NCBI GenBank assembly: GCA_002917775.1
Contig: KZ627161.1
Location: 106,357 to 170,356 of the forward strand
Reading direction: 5' to 3'
Origin: Glaciozyma antarctica PI12
Taxonomy: Eukaryota; Basidiomycota; Microbotryomycetes; Kriegeriales; Camptobasidiaceae
Length of the DNA stretch: 64,000 nucleotides
Made by a program: the position numbers and the translations under genes
Part shown: piece after piece, positions 1 through 33,867 of the stretch
How positions within the stretch are numbered: the stretch's first letter is position 1
How the letters are laid out: each line of letters begins with the position of its first letter
The notes under the pieces: generated by a model
Database searches by the model: none
The model's input: the letters and a program-made list of their open reading frames with translations, nothing else
Told to the model about the DNA's origin: nothing

Positions 1-316
1 TCCCCGTTCAAGTCCAACCTCACCGAGATCAACTCGAAGATGTTTGCAGGATTGTCGCAGGGGATTTCGAGCACGATTTGGAAGAGGCACGATTGCGTGC
101 AGGAGCTCATGGGGATTTACGGTGGGAAGCGACCTGGACCTCAGTTGGCGTTCTACGAGCTTGAGCCGGTGCTTTACAAGAGGCCCAGTACGTCTTCTCG
201 CTTTTGCTTAACGAGGATTGGAGCTGACGGAACTCGTTCTGTGCGCAGTTAAGAAGAACCTCGAGGTCGGATGGTGCTCGGATAAGCACGGGTCGAGAAT
301 TTGCAGGCAGCCGTGA
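1..316 (+). CDS. Glycosyltransferase family 64 (exostosin-like), 3' end only
   Basis: Only the C-terminus of this gene lies in the window. The frame is open from base 1. A GTACGT...GCGCAG intron sits at about 190-248 and the last exon ends at the TGA at 314-316, giving a tail that ends in RICRQP. The translation aligns residue for residue with the C-terminus of the GT8-GT64 protein encoded at 7078-10044 on the other strand: shared blocks include KSxLTE, FAGLxQG, the GG+RPG motif, FYEL+PV, GWCSD and CRQP. It is therefore a paralogue, probably also of the GT8-GT64 type, although the upstream part is not visible. The paralogue at 7078 lacks the last intron, so one intron was gained or lost. The family transfers sugars to glycans, normally in the Golgi lumen. 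Confidence 0.8.
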
Positions 317-7077: not shown

Positions 7078-10044
7078 CTACGGCTGTCGACATTCCCTCG
7101 ACTCCGCGGTATCGGAACACCACCCCGTCGACAAGTGGTCCCTCACCGCCAGCTTGTACACCCTCCTCCTCACCGGATCGAGCTCGTAAAAGCTTCTCTG
7201 CACGCCCGGTCTCCTTCCCCCGAAGATATCGACCAGCTTCTGCACGCACTCATCCCGCTTCTCCCTCCAGACGATGCTCGAAAGGCCTTGCGGAAGGCCG
7301 GCGAAGTGCGTCGAATGGAGCTCGGTGAGGTCGCTCTTGAAGAAGAGCGGCGGGCGAGGAGCTGATGCCGGAGAGGGAGAGGGGGAGGGGGAGGGGGCGT
7401 GCGCGACGAGGAAGGACATGGCGATATCTTCGCAGGGAGCGTCGGTGGAGAGGGCGACGAGGGCGGGGTTGTCGAAGTAGGCCTGCATGTAGGTTCGAGA
7501 GACCAAAAATAGCTTTCCGATCTGCGCTCCTGGGTCAACAACCTTCGCATCTCGAGCGAGAGAGTGAAAGACCGCACGACGACGTCGAAATGTCCTTTTG
7601 GGAGCTTGAAGCGGTACTTGCAGCCCGTCGGACGCTCCGCCAGCTTCTCGACCACCACGAAACCGTCGAGAGTAGGCACCCCACTCATTGCTGGGTCCTC
7701 GTCGTCCTCTTCATCTCCATCGCAGACGATCAGGCGAGGTTCGAAGCCAAGAACTTGATCGCGGTGCTGGCGCCAAATGCTGAACGCTGCTTCGAGGTCT
7801 TCGAGAGGAGCGAGGAGCTGCGTTTGATTCTTTCAGCAAACTCTTTGCGAGGTAGAAGAGCGAACGCACGTCGTCGTCGTAGTAAAGAACTGCCTCGGTC
7901 GTTACTTCAGGCCAGATGAGGAACCTGCGAACGTGCGCGTTGATTTAGCCACAACGCAGACGCTGTATTTGCGAAAGAAAGCCTACCGATTATGAACGAG
8001 GCTCGCAGCTTGAGGTAGACACTGCACCCATGGCAGCTCAACGATCTCCGCCGGACATGGTTCCTGCCACGCTGGAATCAGCAAAGGCGACTGCGCAAGG
8101 CGACGACTCACGTCAAGGTTGTTCCAGGCGACAAGGATCTCCTTGATGTAGGCCGAGCGCTGAAGGTGATCCGCGATCTTGAGGAGGGTGTCGGCGCAGC
8201 CGAACGAGACGATAACGACGGTGAACTGCGAGATAGAGTGTGAGATCGGAAGGACAGATGAAGCGAAGCTGACGAAGTGTGACGCACCTGTTCGACCGAC
8301 GGCGGGGCTGGAGGACGCGTGATGACAAGATTCGAGCACGCCTGCGAGTTTGTTGCCTCGGCACCGAGGAAGTTCCTGAAATCGGGAAAGTACTCCGCCC
8401 TGTGTCGTCGTCAGCTTCCTCACCTTCCCGAATCGCAAAAGACTCACCACAGCTCCGAGTAGTAGCCTTCGCCGTCGCACATCCACGGCTTGATGACTCC
8501 ACTGTTCTTTGCATCAGCTCGGGCCTGCGGAGCGAGCGAAAAGACGCACTTCCAATGAAGGATGCCCGCGCTGAGGACCTCGTCGCGGCTCCTCGTCCAG
8601 GGAAGCCCGTTCTTCCATTCCGTCTCCTCTTGCAAGCCAGCAATGTCCATGAGCTGCAGGATCGTTAGCTGAGCCCGTCAAGCGCGGCGCGAAGGTATCT
8701 CACATTCCAGCCGTCGTCGAGAACCTTATAATTGCGGCTGCGAAGAGGGGGATCAGCATCACAAGCCTAGGTATCCACAACAAGGCGTACTAGAACTGCG
8801 TCGGGTCAGCGAGTGTGGAGGAAGGCGTGATGGGAAGAACGAACGACAAGGTTGAACGGAGGCTGCGAGCCCAGCTCGTACAGCTTGTCTTCGCCGTTCA
8901 GGCGAGTCCATTCAAATAGCTGGTCGGTATAGGAAGGCGAGGATTTGCGCCAAGCGTTGAGATCGTAGACAAGGACGCCTGCGTGGGGTCGTTAGGCCAG
9001 TCTTGCGAAGTTCGGGAGCGAGCGAACCGTTGTTGAGAGTGCAGGTCGAATGATCGAAGCCCTTCAGCGCCAATTGAGGCTTCCCCATGATGGATTGCTT
9101 GCGCCACTGTAGATTTGTTAACTCTCCTCACACGCTGTAGCAAGGAAGCCGGTGGTGAGGACGCACGAGAGCAGAAGATCGACACAGTCCTGTTCGCACG
9201 CGGTCAGCTCAGCGTCCTAAGGGAAGAGGCGAGAAGCACTTGCGAGCAGCAGCTATAGGGTGACCCTCGAGGTCGACATCCCAAAGCTCCTCGAGGTCCT
9301 TCTGCACCAGCACGTCTTGATCGAGGTATATGACTCGCTCGACGCTCTCCGGGAGCAGCGACGGCATGAGGTACCTCGCGAACACGATCGGCTGCGATAG
9401 GTGTCAGCTCACTCCCATCCCATCCTCCCAATCTGGACTCACCTGACTCAGCGACTTTGCGCGATACCCGGCCCACACCTTGACCTCTCGAAGGCGCTCC
9501 TCTTGCACTTCGAGCAACCCATACGGACGGATTCTGCCCTCCATTCCCTCCCCGAAGCACTCTTCCACGGTGTTGACAATCCTTTCCGCTTCCTCCAAGC
9601 TCGAGGAGACGATGTGGAACTGCAGGCGAGGGAGAGTCGACGGGGACGCGTTGGAGACGGTCGAGTTGAAGAGGGCCAGGAGGCCAACAGTGTAGGACAG
9701 GCTCGAGGTGAAGACGAGATGGATCAGAGGATCTCCTTTCTCCTGCGCTGTCCGTTAGCCTGCGTTGAGAGGAACATTCAAGAGAGGAGCCTCACCTCGC
9801 GGAAGGCTGGCGGGTCGCGGCTGGTGGCGAAAGAGTTCACAGAGCTCGTGAGAAGAGAGGTCCAGCGGCTCTCCTGAGTTAGACGAAAGATAAGGCTGAG
9901 CTGTACGAGGGCGATGAGAAGGAGGAGCTCGCTCCAGCGTGGACGACGGAGCTTCCTGTGAGAACAAGCGCGTCAGCCACTGCAGCTTGTGCAACTCGTA
10001 CTGCTCCCTGAGAGCTGCTGGCAGAGCTGAAACACTCACAGCAT
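7078..10044 (-). CDS. Bifunctional GT8-GT64 glycosyltransferase, type II membrane protein
   Basis: The spliced translation runs without a break through two catalytic domains. The ATG (10042-10044) is followed after five bases by an intron. Then come the basic cytoplasmic LRRPRWSE, a hydrophobic anchor (LLLLIALVQLSLIF), and a GT8 domain: HLVFTSS, VERVIYLDQDVLVQKDLEEL with the DxD metal site, CTLNNGVLVYDLNAWR, LDDGWN, GILHWN and IKPW. Directly after it, a GT64 domain follows: FTVVIVSFG, NRFLIWPEV, AVLYYDDD (DxD), FSIWRQHRDQVLGFEPR, and DAPCEDIAMSFLVAH. It ends in CRQP. GT8 and GT64 are separate CAZy families, and I know them mostly as separate proteins. The anchor suggests a Golgi enzyme making a glycan with two alternating or successive sugars; the sugars cannot be read from sequence. 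About 14 introns include one GC-AG intron and a 5-base exon. A poly Pro-Ser stretch lies near the end. Confidence 0.88.
8791..8795 (-). other. Five-base microexon of the GT8-GT64 gene
   Basis: On the minus strand the sequence reads ...GACGCAG, TTCTA, GTACGCC..., so an acceptor and a donor enclose five bases. Including them joins FNLV to YRNYKVLDDGWN in phase (the exon supplies Phe and two bases of Tyr) and restores the GT8 fold sequence. Leaving them out shifts the frame. The exon is inferred from protein continuity only; no transcript data are available. Confidence 0.7.
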
Positions 10045-10547
10045 GTTTGCGCTACCAGAAAAGGCGTACGGAGGAGGGAGAAGGACGCGATCCCGTCGTG
10101 GCTCTGACAGAGGAGCGCAGAGGGTCTGTGAGCCAGGTTTGAATTCGCTTCTCTCCCGCAGAGCTGAGGAGGCATGAAAGCTGTGCACCAGCTTCACCGT
10201 GGAGAGCTTCTGGGAGAACGAGCACGCGAGCCACGTTGGAGCTTGGAGCCCCATCGCCTCGCTAGCGAGCTCGACTCTGACCTGCGTCGAATCCGTACCT
10301 TCGCACAAAGTATTGCGATACCCCCCCCAGCTGCGAAGCGATCAGATACTCCCCTCCACTCGGTGTGCGAAGGAACGCACCTCCTTCTCGCCATCCAGCT
10401 CCACCTCCCCCAGCATCTTCCTCAGCCGCTCCCCGCCCTCCTCCCCGTAACCACCCGCAGCTGCGCCCACCACCACGCTTCACTCTGAAACACAAGCTCG
10501 GGACAACAGCAGCAATCCTCGATAATCTGTACTCGATTAGATGACCT
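10045..10547. other. Promoter region of GT8-GT64 and 3' end of YPP1
   Basis: This 503-base stretch lies between two genes on the minus strand. Small open frames are present but have no motifs. It should hold the YPP1 terminator and the promoter of the glycosyltransferase gene. I see no distinctive element. Confidence 0.35.
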
Positions 10548-13500
10548 CTACAAAAGCCTCGGGACCGCACTCCTCAGCGTCCTCACGCTCCTCGTCTCCT
10601 CCAACTGCAGCGCCCACACCAAACACTCCTTCTCCTTCGCCCCCCTTCCCGTCCCCTTATAGCACCTGCTCAACTCGAACCACGCCTCGGGTACATCCCA
10701 CCCCTGCGTCGTCGTGAGCGATTCCAAGAGGCCTTCTGCGAAGGGGATTTTGGCGGGGGTGGCGAGGTACAGCCGTGCGAGGAGGATGGTCGAGGGAGTG
10801 TGGGAGAGGGAGAATGAGAGGGCTTTGATGAGAGATGTGCGGGCTTGCTCGACGTTGGAGGTGGCGAGAGAGTAGAGTGCGAACTGCGATGAAGAGTGAG
10901 CGGTGGCGATGAAATAGGAATGGAGAGAGGTACCTGGGCCCAGACGTCCGGATCATCCGCGTTAAGCGCTTCGGCCTCCTGAATCGCACCGCGAGACTCC
11001 TCGAGCTTCCCAGCCCGACGGAACGACGCAGCCGACATGAGCCACAAGTCGACGAGGAGCTTCGTCGCGCGAGGATTGTTTTCTAGCGAGAATGTTGTCG
11101 AAGGGGAAGGCGGTGACTCGTCGAGAGAAAGAGCGCTGAAGGACTCGTTGGCGGGTGGGGCGAAGGTGGTCGAGTTGCGGGAGCGAAGGGAGAATGCTCG
11201 AGATGGGGGTTGCGCGACACTCACTGCGCGAGATTCAGGACAGTCAGCGTTGTCACCGAGAAGCGCGAGCGTGTACGCACGAGTAGAACCGGCTGCATCT
11301 CCGCTGGCCGTCCGATTCGTGCTTCGCTTGCCACCGCGGACCGAAGTCCGTCGCGCCGTCGCCGCCGTCGAGATAGTCACCGGAATCGGCTTTGCGATCT
11401 CTGCACCAAACAACACCATCAGCTACCATCCCCACACAGAAAGCAAACAACGCACCAGGAACATTCTTAATGTTCTTGACCGCCTGCGAGAAGAACGCCA
11501 ACAACGCCTGCTGATCCAACAACGCCGCCGCCGGTCCCTCCATCGCCTCAATCACAAAATTCTTCGTCATGCGAATCTGCACCTCGGTCGTCAACCGCTC
11601 CGTGTCGTCCCTCGGGAAGTCGAACCCATTTGTCGTCGCGAGGTCCTCCGGACCCGATTCCTCCTCATCCAACGCCGTCTCAAGCACCTGCAACGCCGCT
11701 CCCAAATCCTTCTGCGCCGCCACCAGGAGCCCAAGAAGGTGCCAGGCGTCCCTGCTCCCGCCGTTGAGTCCCACTGCTCTTCGGGCGCGTTCGAGCGCCG
11801 GGCCGATTTGCCGCAGTTCGAAGAGCTGGTACGAGAGGTGGTAGAGGGTTTCCCAAGAGGTGGGGTCGAGAGAGGAAGCGGCTTGGAGGTGTTGAAGTGC
11901 GAGGGCGTGCTGGTCTGGTCGGGTTTCGAGGTCGGCCTCTGCGAGCGGAAGGGCGTTAGCTTCGCGCGGTTTGCTCGAGGGAATGGGACGAACCTTTCGC
12001 CGTCAGTGCTCCCCAAGCGATTCCCAACGCACGTTCGATCCGACTCTCCTCGACCTTGTCCCCCACCAACCCCTCGTCCTTCTTCTCATCAAACACCTCC
12101 CTCGCCCTCCTCGCCAGCTCGAGCCCCCGCGCCGGGTCATCAAGGTACTTGCAACAAAGCCTCGTCCCAAACGCCAACGTCCTCACAAACTCTCGATCCG
12201 AATCGATATCGAAGTCCTCCTCCTCGGGCATCGGTTCGACCTTCCCCTCGGTCCTCGAGCGGAATTTGCGCACGTCTCGAGCGACTTGCGCAGCGTCGGT
12301 TTCGCGCGCTGTGTTGAAGAGGTCGACGTAGAGGTCGAGAGCTTTGCCAGCTTCGACGTGCGCTCCGCGCGCTGCGAGGACGCGAACGAGGTGCCGAAGA
12401 AGTCGCTGAGATTGAAAAGTGTGCGTGAGGGCGTTGTAAAGGATCTGCCAAACTTCGTCAGAGCCCTGCCAGAGCCCCGAGAAGAAAGAACGCACCTCGA
12501 CCACCTCGATGGCGCCTCCACTCCCTGCGCCGCCTATCCGCCATCCCTCCGCCACGTCGTCCAAGAACTCGAGATACGGCTTATTGATCTCTCCAGCCAG
12601 CGGTAAGGACGTCAAAGTCCTCAGCAGCGCCTCCTGCGCCTTGTTATTCGCTGCGACTTCGGCGAACCATTCGCTCTCGGCGCCGCGAGGGGAACCAGAG
12701 GCGTGAAGGAGGGTGCGGAAGGAGCGGTGAATGACGAGGGCTTTTTTGGGGCGGGAGGTGGTCCAGTGCGAGGAATGCTTGAGGTAGAGGCGGTGAGGGA
12801 TGAAGGCGGAGTTGCTGGTGAGATTGCGTTAGTAAAATCCAGGAGGACGAAACGGGGGACGCACGGCGTGGAGCGAGATAGTAAGCATAGGCGGAAGAGC
12901 ACGTCCTCGCCGTGCTTGTGCAGCTCGACATCGTTCTTCGTCCCGCCGCTGCGAGCGAGGATATCGCACGCGTCGTTGTAGACCCTCCCTGCCCGCCTAT
13001 GCGCCTCCAACGCTTCCGCCGTCCTCCCCAATCGCTCATTCGCATACCCTGCACAATTAATCAGCTCCCACCTCGCAGGAATTAGCCAAAACACGCACCC
13101 TCGACCGCATTCGCCAACACCCTCAGCGTGAGGTCATACCCCTCCACCTCGCCTTTCGGACACCCCTTCTCCACTCCCTCCATTTCCACCAACGCTTTCC
13201 CAAACTCTCCAACGCAATAGAGCCCCCCACGCCCTGACCACCCTAGCAGAATCCCGATCGACCGCACTGCCGCTACCATTATTGATAGCGCCCGCGAGCG
13301 TCTCTAGAGCTGTTAGAGCGGTCGGACGGTCGGAGCTTGCGATGAGAGGAGTTGAGAGAGGGGGAAGGGAGAGGGTTGGAGAGGCGTTGGAGCGGTCGGG
13401 GTGGTAGGAGGTTATGAGAGCTGCGCGGGAGAGGAGTTGATGGAGAGTGTGTTCGGCGAGAGCGGCTTGAGCGGTCACTGCGTGCGTGCGGTGTCAGGAG

Positions 13501-13916
13501 CGTCTTGAGGCCTCCGTGAGCTGGTGAAGCACCCAGCGCGACGACAGCTCCGAGTTGCCTCGTGTCGAAGCACAAGAGCAGCCGGTGCTTCCCAGCTCAG
13601 CAGGTCGCTCTCCCCCAGCTCCACCAGCTCAGCATCTCCCAGCACACGCAGCCTAGCTCCCCCACCGCAGCTCCCCAAGCCACGATCCTCCCACGGCATA
13701 AGAACGAAGCAGCCACTCACCTTCTCTCCCCACGACGTGCTTCCCAAACTTCCTCACGAGCTCCTTCCAGTCCATCCCACCATCCGCACCATCTCCGCCC
13801 GCCGCTCCACCGACGTTGGAGACACGGCCTTGCGCGTCGACGGGGTGTACAGCCGGGAAGAGGGCGAGCCGGCGTGCGAGGTCGAGTGAGTTGGCGTAGA
13901 GAGTCGCTTTCGACAT
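10548..13916 (-). CDS. YPP1: YPP1/TTC7-like TPR protein
   Basis: A large multi-exon protein starting MSKATLYANSLDLARR and ending in TLRSAVPRLL. The C-terminal half is made of TPR helices: SWETLYHLSYQLFEL, ALERARRAVGLNGGSRDAWH with LLGLLVAAQKDLGAA, later DLWLMSAASFRRAGKLEES, ALNADDPDVWAQ, and the family-typical end with AEGLLESLTTTQGWDVPEAW and ECLVWALQLEE. This order matches yeast Ypp1 and animal TTC7, which with Efr3 bring the phosphatidylinositol 4-kinase Stt4 to the plasma membrane and so feed PI4P production. Introns are numerous and short. The gene is divergent from the Rab gene, with 497 bases between the starts. Assignment rests on the tail and TPR pattern; other large TPR adaptors are less likely. 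Confidence 0.8.
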
Positions 13917-23086: not shown

Positions 23087-24307
23087 CTACTCCATCTCCT
23101 CCCCCACCTCCACCCGCACCAAAACTCCAACATGATCACTAGGCCACGCCCACCCGTCCTTCCCCGTCCAATCCCTCACTCTCCCTCCTCCACTCCTTAC
23201 CACCTCCCTCCCCACTTCCCCATACTCGACGCACCTCACCGCACCCCCTAGTAACACCCTGTCAATCCTCCTCACTTTCCTCACCTTCTTCGCCCCCGGT
23301 ATCAGAGGATACAATTCCCCGAAAGTCGGTGCGGCGCGAAAGAGGTCTGAGGAGGGGTGGGGGAAACAGTCGGTTAGGGAGTCGGAGGGGGGCTAGTTCT
23401 GCGTGAGAGGAATTGTTGAAATCGGCGAGAAGGAGGGAGGGGAGGGAGGAGGAGAGGTGGGAGAGGGCGAGTTGGTACTGCGTCGTGCGGAGAGAGGCGT
23501 TGTGAGGGAGGGAGGAGAAATGGGATGAGACGATTAAGCGAAGTNNNGANNNNNNNNNNNNNNNNNNNNNNNNNNNGGTANTGCGTCGTGCGGAGAGAGG
23601 CGTTGTGAGGGAGGGAGGAGAAATGGGATGAGACGATTCGGAGCTGTACCGACCTCATTAGCATCCTCCTGCAAACTAGAGGGATTACGCACCTGCTCAA
23701 CCCCACCAGAGAACAACCTCAGAACGACCAACGCCTTCCCTCCCTCCCCCCTCCCCGTCGGCAGCCGCACGAACCCCACCCTACTCCCCGCTCCCACCAA
23801 CCCTCTCCTCACCAACAGCACTACCGCCTCCTCCCCTCCCTCCTTCCCCCATCCTCCCCCACCCCTCCCCGCCGCCTGCAGGAACTCCCGCGCGCCGCTA
23901 AGGACGTACTCCCTCGCCCAACCAGCCTTCTGTAACGCGCCGAAGAACGCTGGTGTCACTTCCTGTAACGCTGCTATATCGAGTCGAGCTTCGTGGAGGA
24001 CGCGTAGGAGCGCTGTAGTCTGGTGAGGCGAGTGAGTGGGAGAGGAGGAGAAGGTGTTGTAGGTGAGGCAACGGAGGGAGGAATGGGGCGTTGGAGTGCT
24101 GGGGAAGACGATGCTGGGGATCCAGCTGGGAGAGAGGAAGGTGTAGAGCTCTGAGGGGAGGAGAGCGGGCCCTTGAGGATGGTGGTGGGGAGGTGCGGCG
24201 GCGGCGGGTTGCGGCGCCTTGGGCTTGCGAAGGCGCTTTCTCTTCGTGGCTGGCGGTGCAGTTGGAGACGCTCTTGATGCCCTGTGAGTTGGAGGTGCGC
24301 GCGGCAT
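23087..24307 (-). CDS. Endonuclease/exonuclease/phosphatase-fold protein, interrupted by assembly gap
   Basis: It starts MPRAPPTHRAS with a basic, Pro/Ala-rich lead. The fold motifs follow in order: LRCLTYNTFS, DIAALQEVTPAF (metal-binding Glu), REYVLSG, VVLLVRRG, VRLPTG, then after the gap SLLLADFNN (Asp/Asn pair), PTFGELYPLIPG, RRIDRVLL and WPSDHVGVLV (catalytic Asp-His) before the stop. This is the signature set of Mg-dependent EEP phosphodiesterases (Ccr4, tyrosyl-DNA phosphodiesterase, sphingomyelinase types); the subgroup is not clear. The gap of undetermined bases at 23545-23576 cuts the middle. A further frame change lies between the ADFNN and PTFGEL blocks at a G6 run (23387-23392 on the plus strand), which looks like one base too many. 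Coding was probably intact in the organism. Confidence 0.75.
23474..23638. repeat. 62-bp duplication flanking an assembly gap
   Basis: The 62 bases at 23474-23535 are repeated at 23577-23638, apart from one undetermined base. Between the copies lie a few bases and a run of undetermined bases (23545-23576). Two contig ends that overlap but were not merged would produce exactly this picture; a true tandem duplication inside the coding region is the alternative. In the EEP gene the duplicated part encodes the LSPHDA-like segment twice. Confidence 0.85.
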
Positions 24308-32606: not shown

Positions 32607-33867
32607 TTAGGCGCTGCAGAACGGAGGAGAGCTCATCGTCGGTGTTTGGCCGGTAGGGCAGTCTGCGAGGAGGGAGAGTGTCAGGGAAGCGTGGGAGGAA
32701 AGAGGAGAGGTACGTACTGAGGTCGCAGGATCCTCCCTTGCAGTAGGCGGTACCGCTGCCGGTGTAGTCGCTGTCGCAAGTGTTTCCGACCTGAGGAGGA
32801 GAGGTTAGTGAATAACTAAGAGCGAAGTGAGAGGAGAACGTACGGCTCCGCAGTTGGCAACATCGCCTTCAAGGTCGAGGCAAGTCGGCTGGCCCGCGAC
32901 GGCGGCGTAGGTGAATCCAGTTCGGCAAGCTGAAAGACACTGTTAGCAAGGGATACAGCGACAGGAGATGAAATAGCGTACTGTAAGTGCAAGCTCCCGC
33001 TGAGCAGCTGGTAACACCGTTCGTGACTCCCACGCAGGTGTTTGGACCGCACGTCGGCGCCTTGAGAACGCAAGCTCCATTCTCGGGCCTGTATCCCGCG
33101 AAGCAGACGAAGCCGCAGACGTCGTTGGGGCAGGTGGCGTACTTGGCGAAGGCGGGAGTGGGGCAGCTGCTCGTAGTGCAAAGAGCGTTGGGGACGCAGG
33201 CGCCGTCTGATGAGGAATGTGGAGTTAGAAAAAGAGTAGCGAGACGCGTGGTGAGAGGTGCTTACTTGAGAGCTTGTTTCCAGCCTTGCACCTGAAAGAG
33301 CACTCTACGGACAGGGGAAGAGTTAGTCGCGCACCTCGCGAAGGAAGTGTGAACGCACCATTCTCCACGCAGGCAGCGACCGAGCGAGGGATGGTGCTCC
33401 GAGGGCAGGTGCTGACGTCGCAGGTGTTCGGTACGCAAGCTCCACCTGGTAGAAGAAGTAAAGGTCAGACGGTGTGGTGGAAGCGGAAGCGAGCGAGCGA
33501 GGACGGACCGATGAGGACGAAAGTAGGCCTGCACCCTGATGAAGATGAACGTCAGCTTCAATCGAGACGGAGTTGAAGAGCGACGCACTGAATCCGCAAG
33601 TGTTGTTGACGCAAGACCGAACCGAGTTGGCAGGAACAGCCGACGGGCACTGGTTCGCACGAGTGCAGACCGCCACCTGTCGCTTGTCGAACTGCAGCGA
33701 CGAAACTGCGGTGTTGAGAACTAGTCAGCGACAATAGAAAGCCTCAGCAGAGTGAACTACTGACGAGCGGGGCTGGTGGTGTCGGTGGGGAGAGCGGCGG
33801 CCGACGTGGAGAGGACGAGGGAGAAGAGAGTGCCGACGAGGGCGAGGGATGAGGTTGAGAAGAGCAT
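32607..33867 (-). CDS. Secreted cysteine-rich protein, copy B
   Basis: Same architecture, exon pattern and orientation as the gene at 29205-30473. It starts MLFSTSSLALVGTLFSLVLS, carries the Kex2 site FDKR before QVAVCTRANQC, then SVRSCVNNTCGF, CRPTFVLI, CDVSTCPRSTIPRS, ECSFRCKAGNKLS, CPTPAFAKYATCPNDVC with GFVCFAGYRPENGACV, TCGPNTCVGVTNGV, CLDLEGDVANCGA, NTCDSDYTGSGTAYC, and ends MSSPPFCSA. The two proteins share all cysteines I can place, so the duplication is recent enough that the fold is kept, while loop residues differ. Secretion and disulfide-rich folding are clear. A surface, adhesion or defence role is only a guess. Confidence 0.8.

Follow-up and report, generated by a model that had tools for sequence, protein, structure and literature searches.

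The DNA analyzed here, referred to below as the window, is a stretch of 64,000 nucleotides from Glaciozyma antarctica PI12, corresponding to C16:106357–170356 in an assembly of 18 contigs and 20.0 Mb. Its minus strand carries a gene whose spliced product contains a GT8 glycosyltransferase domain followed by a GT64 domain, two domains that usually occur apart. The ATG and the stop codon lie where an earlier note on this DNA had placed the ends of the gene. The features of the gene are listed below in window coordinates; L006 and C13 denote two paralogous copies described in a later section.

7078..10044, minus: GT8-GT64 fusion gene of 17 exons and 695 aa, ATG at 10044, stop at 7078 (gene model, Pfam, intron map common to the two paralogues)
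9956..10044, minus: first coding exon (5 bases, 10044-10040) and intron 1 (84 bases); the 5-base exon occurs in 3/3 readable copies
9796..9955, minus: exon 2, encoding the stem and, at about residues 9-28, a hydrophobic anchor (hydropathy); predicted type II topology
8448..9742, minus: exons 3-11, GT8 domain, residues 63-338 (Pfam PF01501)
9190..9243, minus: intron 4, GC-AG type, donor GCAAGT; GT donors at the equivalent place in both paralogues
8791..8795, minus: exon 8, a 5-base microexon encoding part of NLV-FY-RNYK, in 3/3 readable copies
8288..8399, minus: exon 12, most of the interdomain linker, residues 349-386, with no stop and no Met (gene model)
7078..8225, minus: exons 13-17, GT64 domain, residues 387-650, and C-terminal tail (Pfam PF09258; EXTL2 structure 1omx, E=1.7e-24)

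The 16 introns of the gene model are 48–84 bases long, and 15 of them are GT-AG; the exception is intron 4. A GT donor for this intron was tried and rejected because it shifts the frame, and the GC donor became apparent when the intron was aligned with L006. Use of GCAAGT, where L006 has GTACGT and C13 has GTGCGT, leaves the frame of the window gene open. All exon junctions are in frame over the 17 exons, as the earlier note had reported for those that it followed, and every motif it quoted was found in the spliced translation. The output of a simple automatic gene prediction was rejected as it stood, since it ran the fusion gene together with an upstream TPR gene and overlooked a number of boundaries. 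This TPR-repeat gene lies directly upstream on the same, minus strand (10381-13916, limits approximate), and the TPR matches in its piece 11253-12002 were below the Pfam cut-offs.

The strongest 19-residue hydropathy segments start at residues 9 and 10 (score 1.81), after a basic N-terminus. A second, weaker peak covers residues 61–80, where the GT8 domain begins (segments starting at 61-62, score 1.66). Since the second score is near that of the first, a single anchor is something we infer rather than read directly. From what is known of the two families, the product would be a type II, Golgi-type membrane protein.

Both domains lie on one polypeptide

In a Pfam scan of the window protein, PF01501 (GT8) matched residues 63-338 with E=1.3e-41 (143.3 bits, cut-off 24.3; profile positions 1-250 of 253) and PF09258 (GT64) matched residues 387-650 with E=1.3e-29 (103.6 bits, cut-off 21.3; profile positions 1-230 of 245). 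The third family matched was GT24, at residues 163-210 inside the GT8 domain (E=8.7e-8), and neither a GT47/exostosin nor a GT49 family was among the three. The linker between the domains is about 48 residues long and contains neither a stop nor a Met; the nearest in-frame Met residues on either side are 338, where the GT8 match ends, and 512, which already lies deep in GT64. A model of two separate genes was rejected because there is no stop or start between the domains and the introns at the junction are common to the three copies.

The earlier note had claimed that GT8 and GT64 are fused in a single polypeptide, had proposed comparing both with Pfam profiles, and had named a stop and start between them as one observation that would speak against fusion. 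Both domains scored above the curated cut-offs, the joint frame proved open in the genomic sequence with no such stop and start, the intron map was common to three copies and purifying selection extended across the junction (see below). The claim was therefore sustained.

Copies of the fusion gene in the genome

A six-frame search of the genome with the window protein returned 34 matching pieces, which group into the window gene and the following three copies.

C16:69.2–72.1 kb, minus: fused copy, L006
C13:1015.9–1018.4 kb, plus: fused copy, C13 (in L024)
Window 1..316, plus: window-edge copy, C-terminal part of GT64, two exons with the intron at 188-248 (search piece C16:106363–106536)

The window-edge piece ends with GWCSD...CRQP-stop and represents a fourth copy, seen here from its GT64 C-terminus alone. 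Its 3′ end faces that of the window gene across ~6.8 kb that hold other predicted genes. This arrangement bears out the inverted duplication described in the earlier note, and the duplication turned out to be broader than claimed there, with two further readable fused copies besides the edge fragment.

Genome searches with the domain profiles work exon by exon, so that their counts are lower bounds. With PF09258, 12 candidates were scored and at least 4 matched, two of these matches forming a stand-alone GT64 on C17; the C13 copy and the window-edge copy were both missed. PF01501 gave at least 6 matches from 7 candidates. The stand-alone GT64 protein (L007 2780-4091) is predicted to have 385 residues and matches Pfam with E=3.8e-43. 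In sequence collections of viruses and prokaryotes, which are silent on fungi, no relative outside this genome was confirmed, either with a single-protein query of viral_contigs (5 pattern matches) or with alignments used against viral_contigs (32 pattern matches) and genome_contigs (20 pattern matches).

Genes for small, probably secreted proteins rich in cysteine are predicted near both fusion copies on C16 (window 32607-33867, minus; L006 6772-7993, minus), and by eye these proteins resemble one another. This end of C16 is perhaps collecting copies of gene families. Short runs of N occur at window 23545-23581.

Conservation and selection among the readable copies

All 16 intron positions are common to the window gene, L006 and C13, and 12 of the 17 exons have the same length in all three. 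Exon 5, only 23 bases long, reads RLCRSSAL in each copy. The window gene served as the guide for modelling L006 and C13, so that these two models are not independent predictions; both are supported by the pattern of sequence change. Pairwise dN/dS values, computed with exon 7 left out, are given below in the order window–L006, window–C13, L006–C13.

N-terminal stem: 0.35, 0.54, 0.63
GT8 before exon 7: 0.14, 0.12, 0.14
GT8 behind exon 7: 0.03 (rough, as dS of 2.4 is near-saturated), not computable (dS saturated), 0.06
Linker: 0.17, 0.13, 0.32
GT64: 0.24, 0.30, 0.26
Tail behind GT64: 0.27, 0.32, 0.54

As judged from these substitution ratios, both domains are under purifying selection, and the N-terminal stem is looser. 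A Pro-Ser stretch (PSPSPSPSPASAP) in the window GT64 domain, at about 7395-7355, is shorter in L006 and absent in C13.

Exon 7 of L006 and of C13 (L024 2143-2280 in the latter) is one base longer than that of the window gene, and the extra bases align at one site; exon 7 of C13 also has a three-base difference from the window gene. The GT8 sequence behind this exon is nevertheless strongly constrained between L006 and C13, with the dN/dS of 0.06 listed above. The one-base difference could reflect assembly errors at one site in both copies, a shared old change that the cell tolerates, or changed splicing. Splice paths were enumerated for both copies, 923 for L006 and 2466 for C13; 277 and 721 of them, respectively, were in frame and free of stops. 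The best four listed for each copy all lose FNLV, which the window gene keeps. The best C13 path drops only these four residues and is otherwise clean, and no comparably clean path was found for L006 among its best four listed of 277. Changed splicing is therefore possible for C13 but unconvincing as an explanation for both copies.

Between the window gene and L006, intron 12 was identical at 61/62 columns and intron 14 at 59/62, compared with 24/55 up to 42/49 in the other 14 introns. In 60-column segments within introns 12 and 14 (8297–8212 and 8010–7921), identity was 0.92–1.00 for window–L006 and 0.45–0.55 for the other pairs. Two recent gene-conversion tracts between the window gene and L006 probably best explain these near-identical introns.

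About 8326–8201, minus: probable gene-conversion tract shared with L006 (intron 12 identity)
About 8001–7885, minus: second probable gene-conversion tract (intron 14 identity; 77-base identical run at 7961-7885)

State of the two active sites

The window GT8 domain contains DQD at residues 179-181, NNG at 237-239, HWNG at 329-332 and KPW at 335-337, so that both the DxD and the C-terminal H.xG..KPW motifs are present. The three copies agree in all of these motifs except for the middle residue of DQD, which gives DLD in C13. We take the roles of DxD and HWNG..KPW to be those of the corresponding motifs in LgtC. The nearest solved structures were a bacterial GT8 (5gvv, 1.2e-8) and LgtC (1.6e-6), and LARGE1 reached only 0.24. 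A single weak NCBIfam match, to a lipopolysaccharide galactosyltransferase model, reached 26 bits where the cut-off is 461, which is too far below to name a function.

The closest solved structure to the GT64 domain was EXTL2 (1.7e-24), followed by EXT2 (1.5e-14), EXTL3 (4e-14) and EXT1 (1e-7). The window GT64 has DDD at residues 466-468 and CEDIAM, of the form C(E/D)DIAM, at 578-583. DDD is present in all three readable copies; CEDIAM is shared by the window gene and L006 and is replaced by CESLSI in C13. The residues of EXTL3 that contact UDP were taken from the consulted part of its structure paper (PMC9178029) and mapped onto the copies through alignments, with a numbering offset of 29 worked out by hand. 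Asn697, Asp745 and Asp746 of EXTL3 correspond to N421, D467 and D468, all of which are present in the window copy, and the counterpart of Tyr670 is F394 in each of the three copies. At the positions of Arg672 and Asn723, the window copy has Cys396 and Ser445. Arg and Asn are retained at these two sites in L006, C13, the stand-alone GT64, EXTL2, EXTL3 and EXT2, and L006 retains all GT64 residues compared. The window GT64 thus departs from an EXTL2/EXTL3-like donor site at these two positions, a departure that bears on its activity and not on its family.

We also counted residues unique to one copy at positions where the other two agree. Between residues 387 and 468, 8 residues are unique to the window copy and none to L006, although the count is small and the region overlaps the stretches exchanged between these two copies. 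In the region 469–650, each has 7. In GT8, the counts were 10 for the window copy and 5 for L006 before exon 7, and 3 for each behind it. These comparisons suggest that, relative to L006, the window copy changed most in the donor-binding half of GT64, and somewhat faster in part of GT8 too. Because the window copy also has an excess in GT8, part of the GT64 excess may reflect a generally faster-changing copy.

The earlier note had proposed a bifunctional Golgi enzyme that adds two different sugars. The GT8 motifs, DDD and CEDIAM are consistent with that proposal, but the GT64 donor site of the window copy lacks the Arg and the Asn; its second activity may therefore be weak, changed or lost, and the proposal stands in part.

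Discussion

GT8 and GT64 enzymes are metal-dependent, have the GT-A fold and keep the alpha configuration of their donor. With the topology, the use of metal, the retaining chemistry and the sequence of the additions taken from the families, we propose that a single gene produces a type II, Golgi-type protein with two retaining GT-A domains in tandem. GT8 would be the constant engine: it would use a UDP-sugar and Mn2+ through DQD and HWNG..KPW and place an alpha-linked sugar on an acceptor. An EXTL2-like GT64 domain would have been recruited behind the linker, so that the acceptor just modified could immediately receive the next alpha-linked sugar. In the window copy GT8 appears fully equipped, and the GT64 donor site has diverged at Cys396 and Ser445, so that its activity is probably reduced or changed. 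We judge somewhat better than even the reading in which GT8 adds one alpha-linked sugar, GT64 adds or once added the next, and the GT64 of the window copy is weakened or changed. Its dN/dS of 0.24-0.30 and its intact DDD and CEDIAM speak against a dead GT64.

The same observations lend weight to a fully bifunctional protein, in which both domains are active and either add two sugars in turn to one acceptor or build an alternating polymer, as proposed for exostosins and LARGE. Both domains are nearly complete and under purifying selection, the window copy retains DDD and CEDIAM, and known two-domain Golgi fusions are thought, according to the part of PMC9178029 consulted, to build alternating polymers. 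However, the window GT64 has lost two UDP-contact residues, C13 has lost CEDIAM, and none of the three readable copies combines an unbroken frame with all of the GT64 residues compared. We regard full bifunctionality as a serious possibility, albeit on the unlikely side.

Alternatively, GT64 could be a non-catalytic partner that serves in folding, dimer formation or acceptor binding, with GT8 as the only working domain. The GT47 domain of EXTL3 would be a precedent, since the EXTL3 paper, in the part consulted, argues that this domain lost its activity (PMC9178029). C396 and S445 in the window copy and CESLSI in C13 fit such a role, as do the dN and dN/dS of GT64, which are higher than those of GT8 in the computable comparisons. 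The presence of DDD in 3/3 copies and of every compared GT64 residue in L006 argues against it, and we consider a non-catalytic GT64 unlikely.

That the gene family is decaying near the end of a contig, with the window copy as a relic or as the last working member, is improbable. The one-base length difference in exon 7 of L006 and C13 and the losses of GT64 motifs would be expected of such a family, and a part of contig C16 of ~47 kb, inside its first 117 kb, contains two readable copies plus a fragment. Yet the frame of the window gene stays open across its 17 exons, and for GT8 behind exon 7 the two pairs out of three that could be computed gave dN/dS values of 0.03 and 0.06. That two adjacent genes have been wrongly joined is very improbable: the fusion is known from genomic sequence alone, and the merger of the gene with the upstream TPR gene by the simple predictor means that its ends are not self-evident, but the frame runs without a stop and has no Met between residues 338 and 512, the linker exons and introns have an identical layout across three copies, and the linker is itself constrained (dN/dS 0.17, 0.13 and 0.32).

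To return to the favored reading, with a GT8 step followed by a present or past GT64 step, the nearest parallel in the order of addition comes from plants. In the glycosyl inositol phosphorylceramide (GIPC) pathway, as described in the part of PMC7980081 consulted, IPUT1 (GT8) adds the first sugar and GMT1 (GT64) the next on one glycolipid. A more specific and quite doubtful extension is that the fungal fusion of GT8 with an EXTL2-like GT64 adds two alpha-linked sugars in sequence, placing the plant order of GT8 then GT64 on one protein and producing a new glycan or glycolipid that is acidic or contains an amino sugar; two of the copies might also have a +1 shift in exon 7, either tolerated or programmed.

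Comparison with known systems

Among known proteins, the exostosins EXT1, EXT2 and EXTL3 (GT47-GT64) likewise carry two glycosyltransferase domains on one Golgi protein, and their GT64 domains match that of the window protein in sequence. The partner domain differs: it is GT47, of the GT-B fold, in the exostosins, whereas in the window protein it is GT8, GT-A and retaining by family knowledge. LARGE1/2 (GT8-GT49; architecture from the consulted part of PMC9178029) are also two-domain Golgi proteins with a GT8 domain, but their second domain is GT49 rather than GT64, and the window GT8 is hardly like that of LARGE1 (E=0.24). EXTL2, an alpha-1,4-N-acetylhexosaminyltransferase, consists of GT64 alone and shares DDD and C(E/D)DIAM with the window GT64; unlike the window protein, it has a single catalytic domain and keeps the Arg and Asn that are missing at 396 and 445. 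LgtC and 5gvv are the best but distant solved relatives of GT8 and match only that part of the protein. Plant IPUT1 and GMT1 are separate proteins, and we liken them to the fusion by step order and not by sequence.

The fusion links two families that, in the portion of PMC7980081 consulted, act consecutively on one plant glycolipid. In the literature searched, limited to open-licence full text, no GT8–GT64 fusion was found, and a query on glycolipids of basidiomycetes returned no paper; fungal protein databases may well contain uncharacterised entries of this architecture. The natural variants, with different GT64 residues changed, provide a ready test of why the domains are joined. In the part of PMC9178029 consulted, three two-domain Golgi glycosyltransferase fusions are named: GT47–GT64, GT31–GT7 and GT8–GT49. 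With both domains in one open frame, as read from genomic sequence alone, GT8–GT64 is a new domain pairing within this known class and would extend the list beyond those three.
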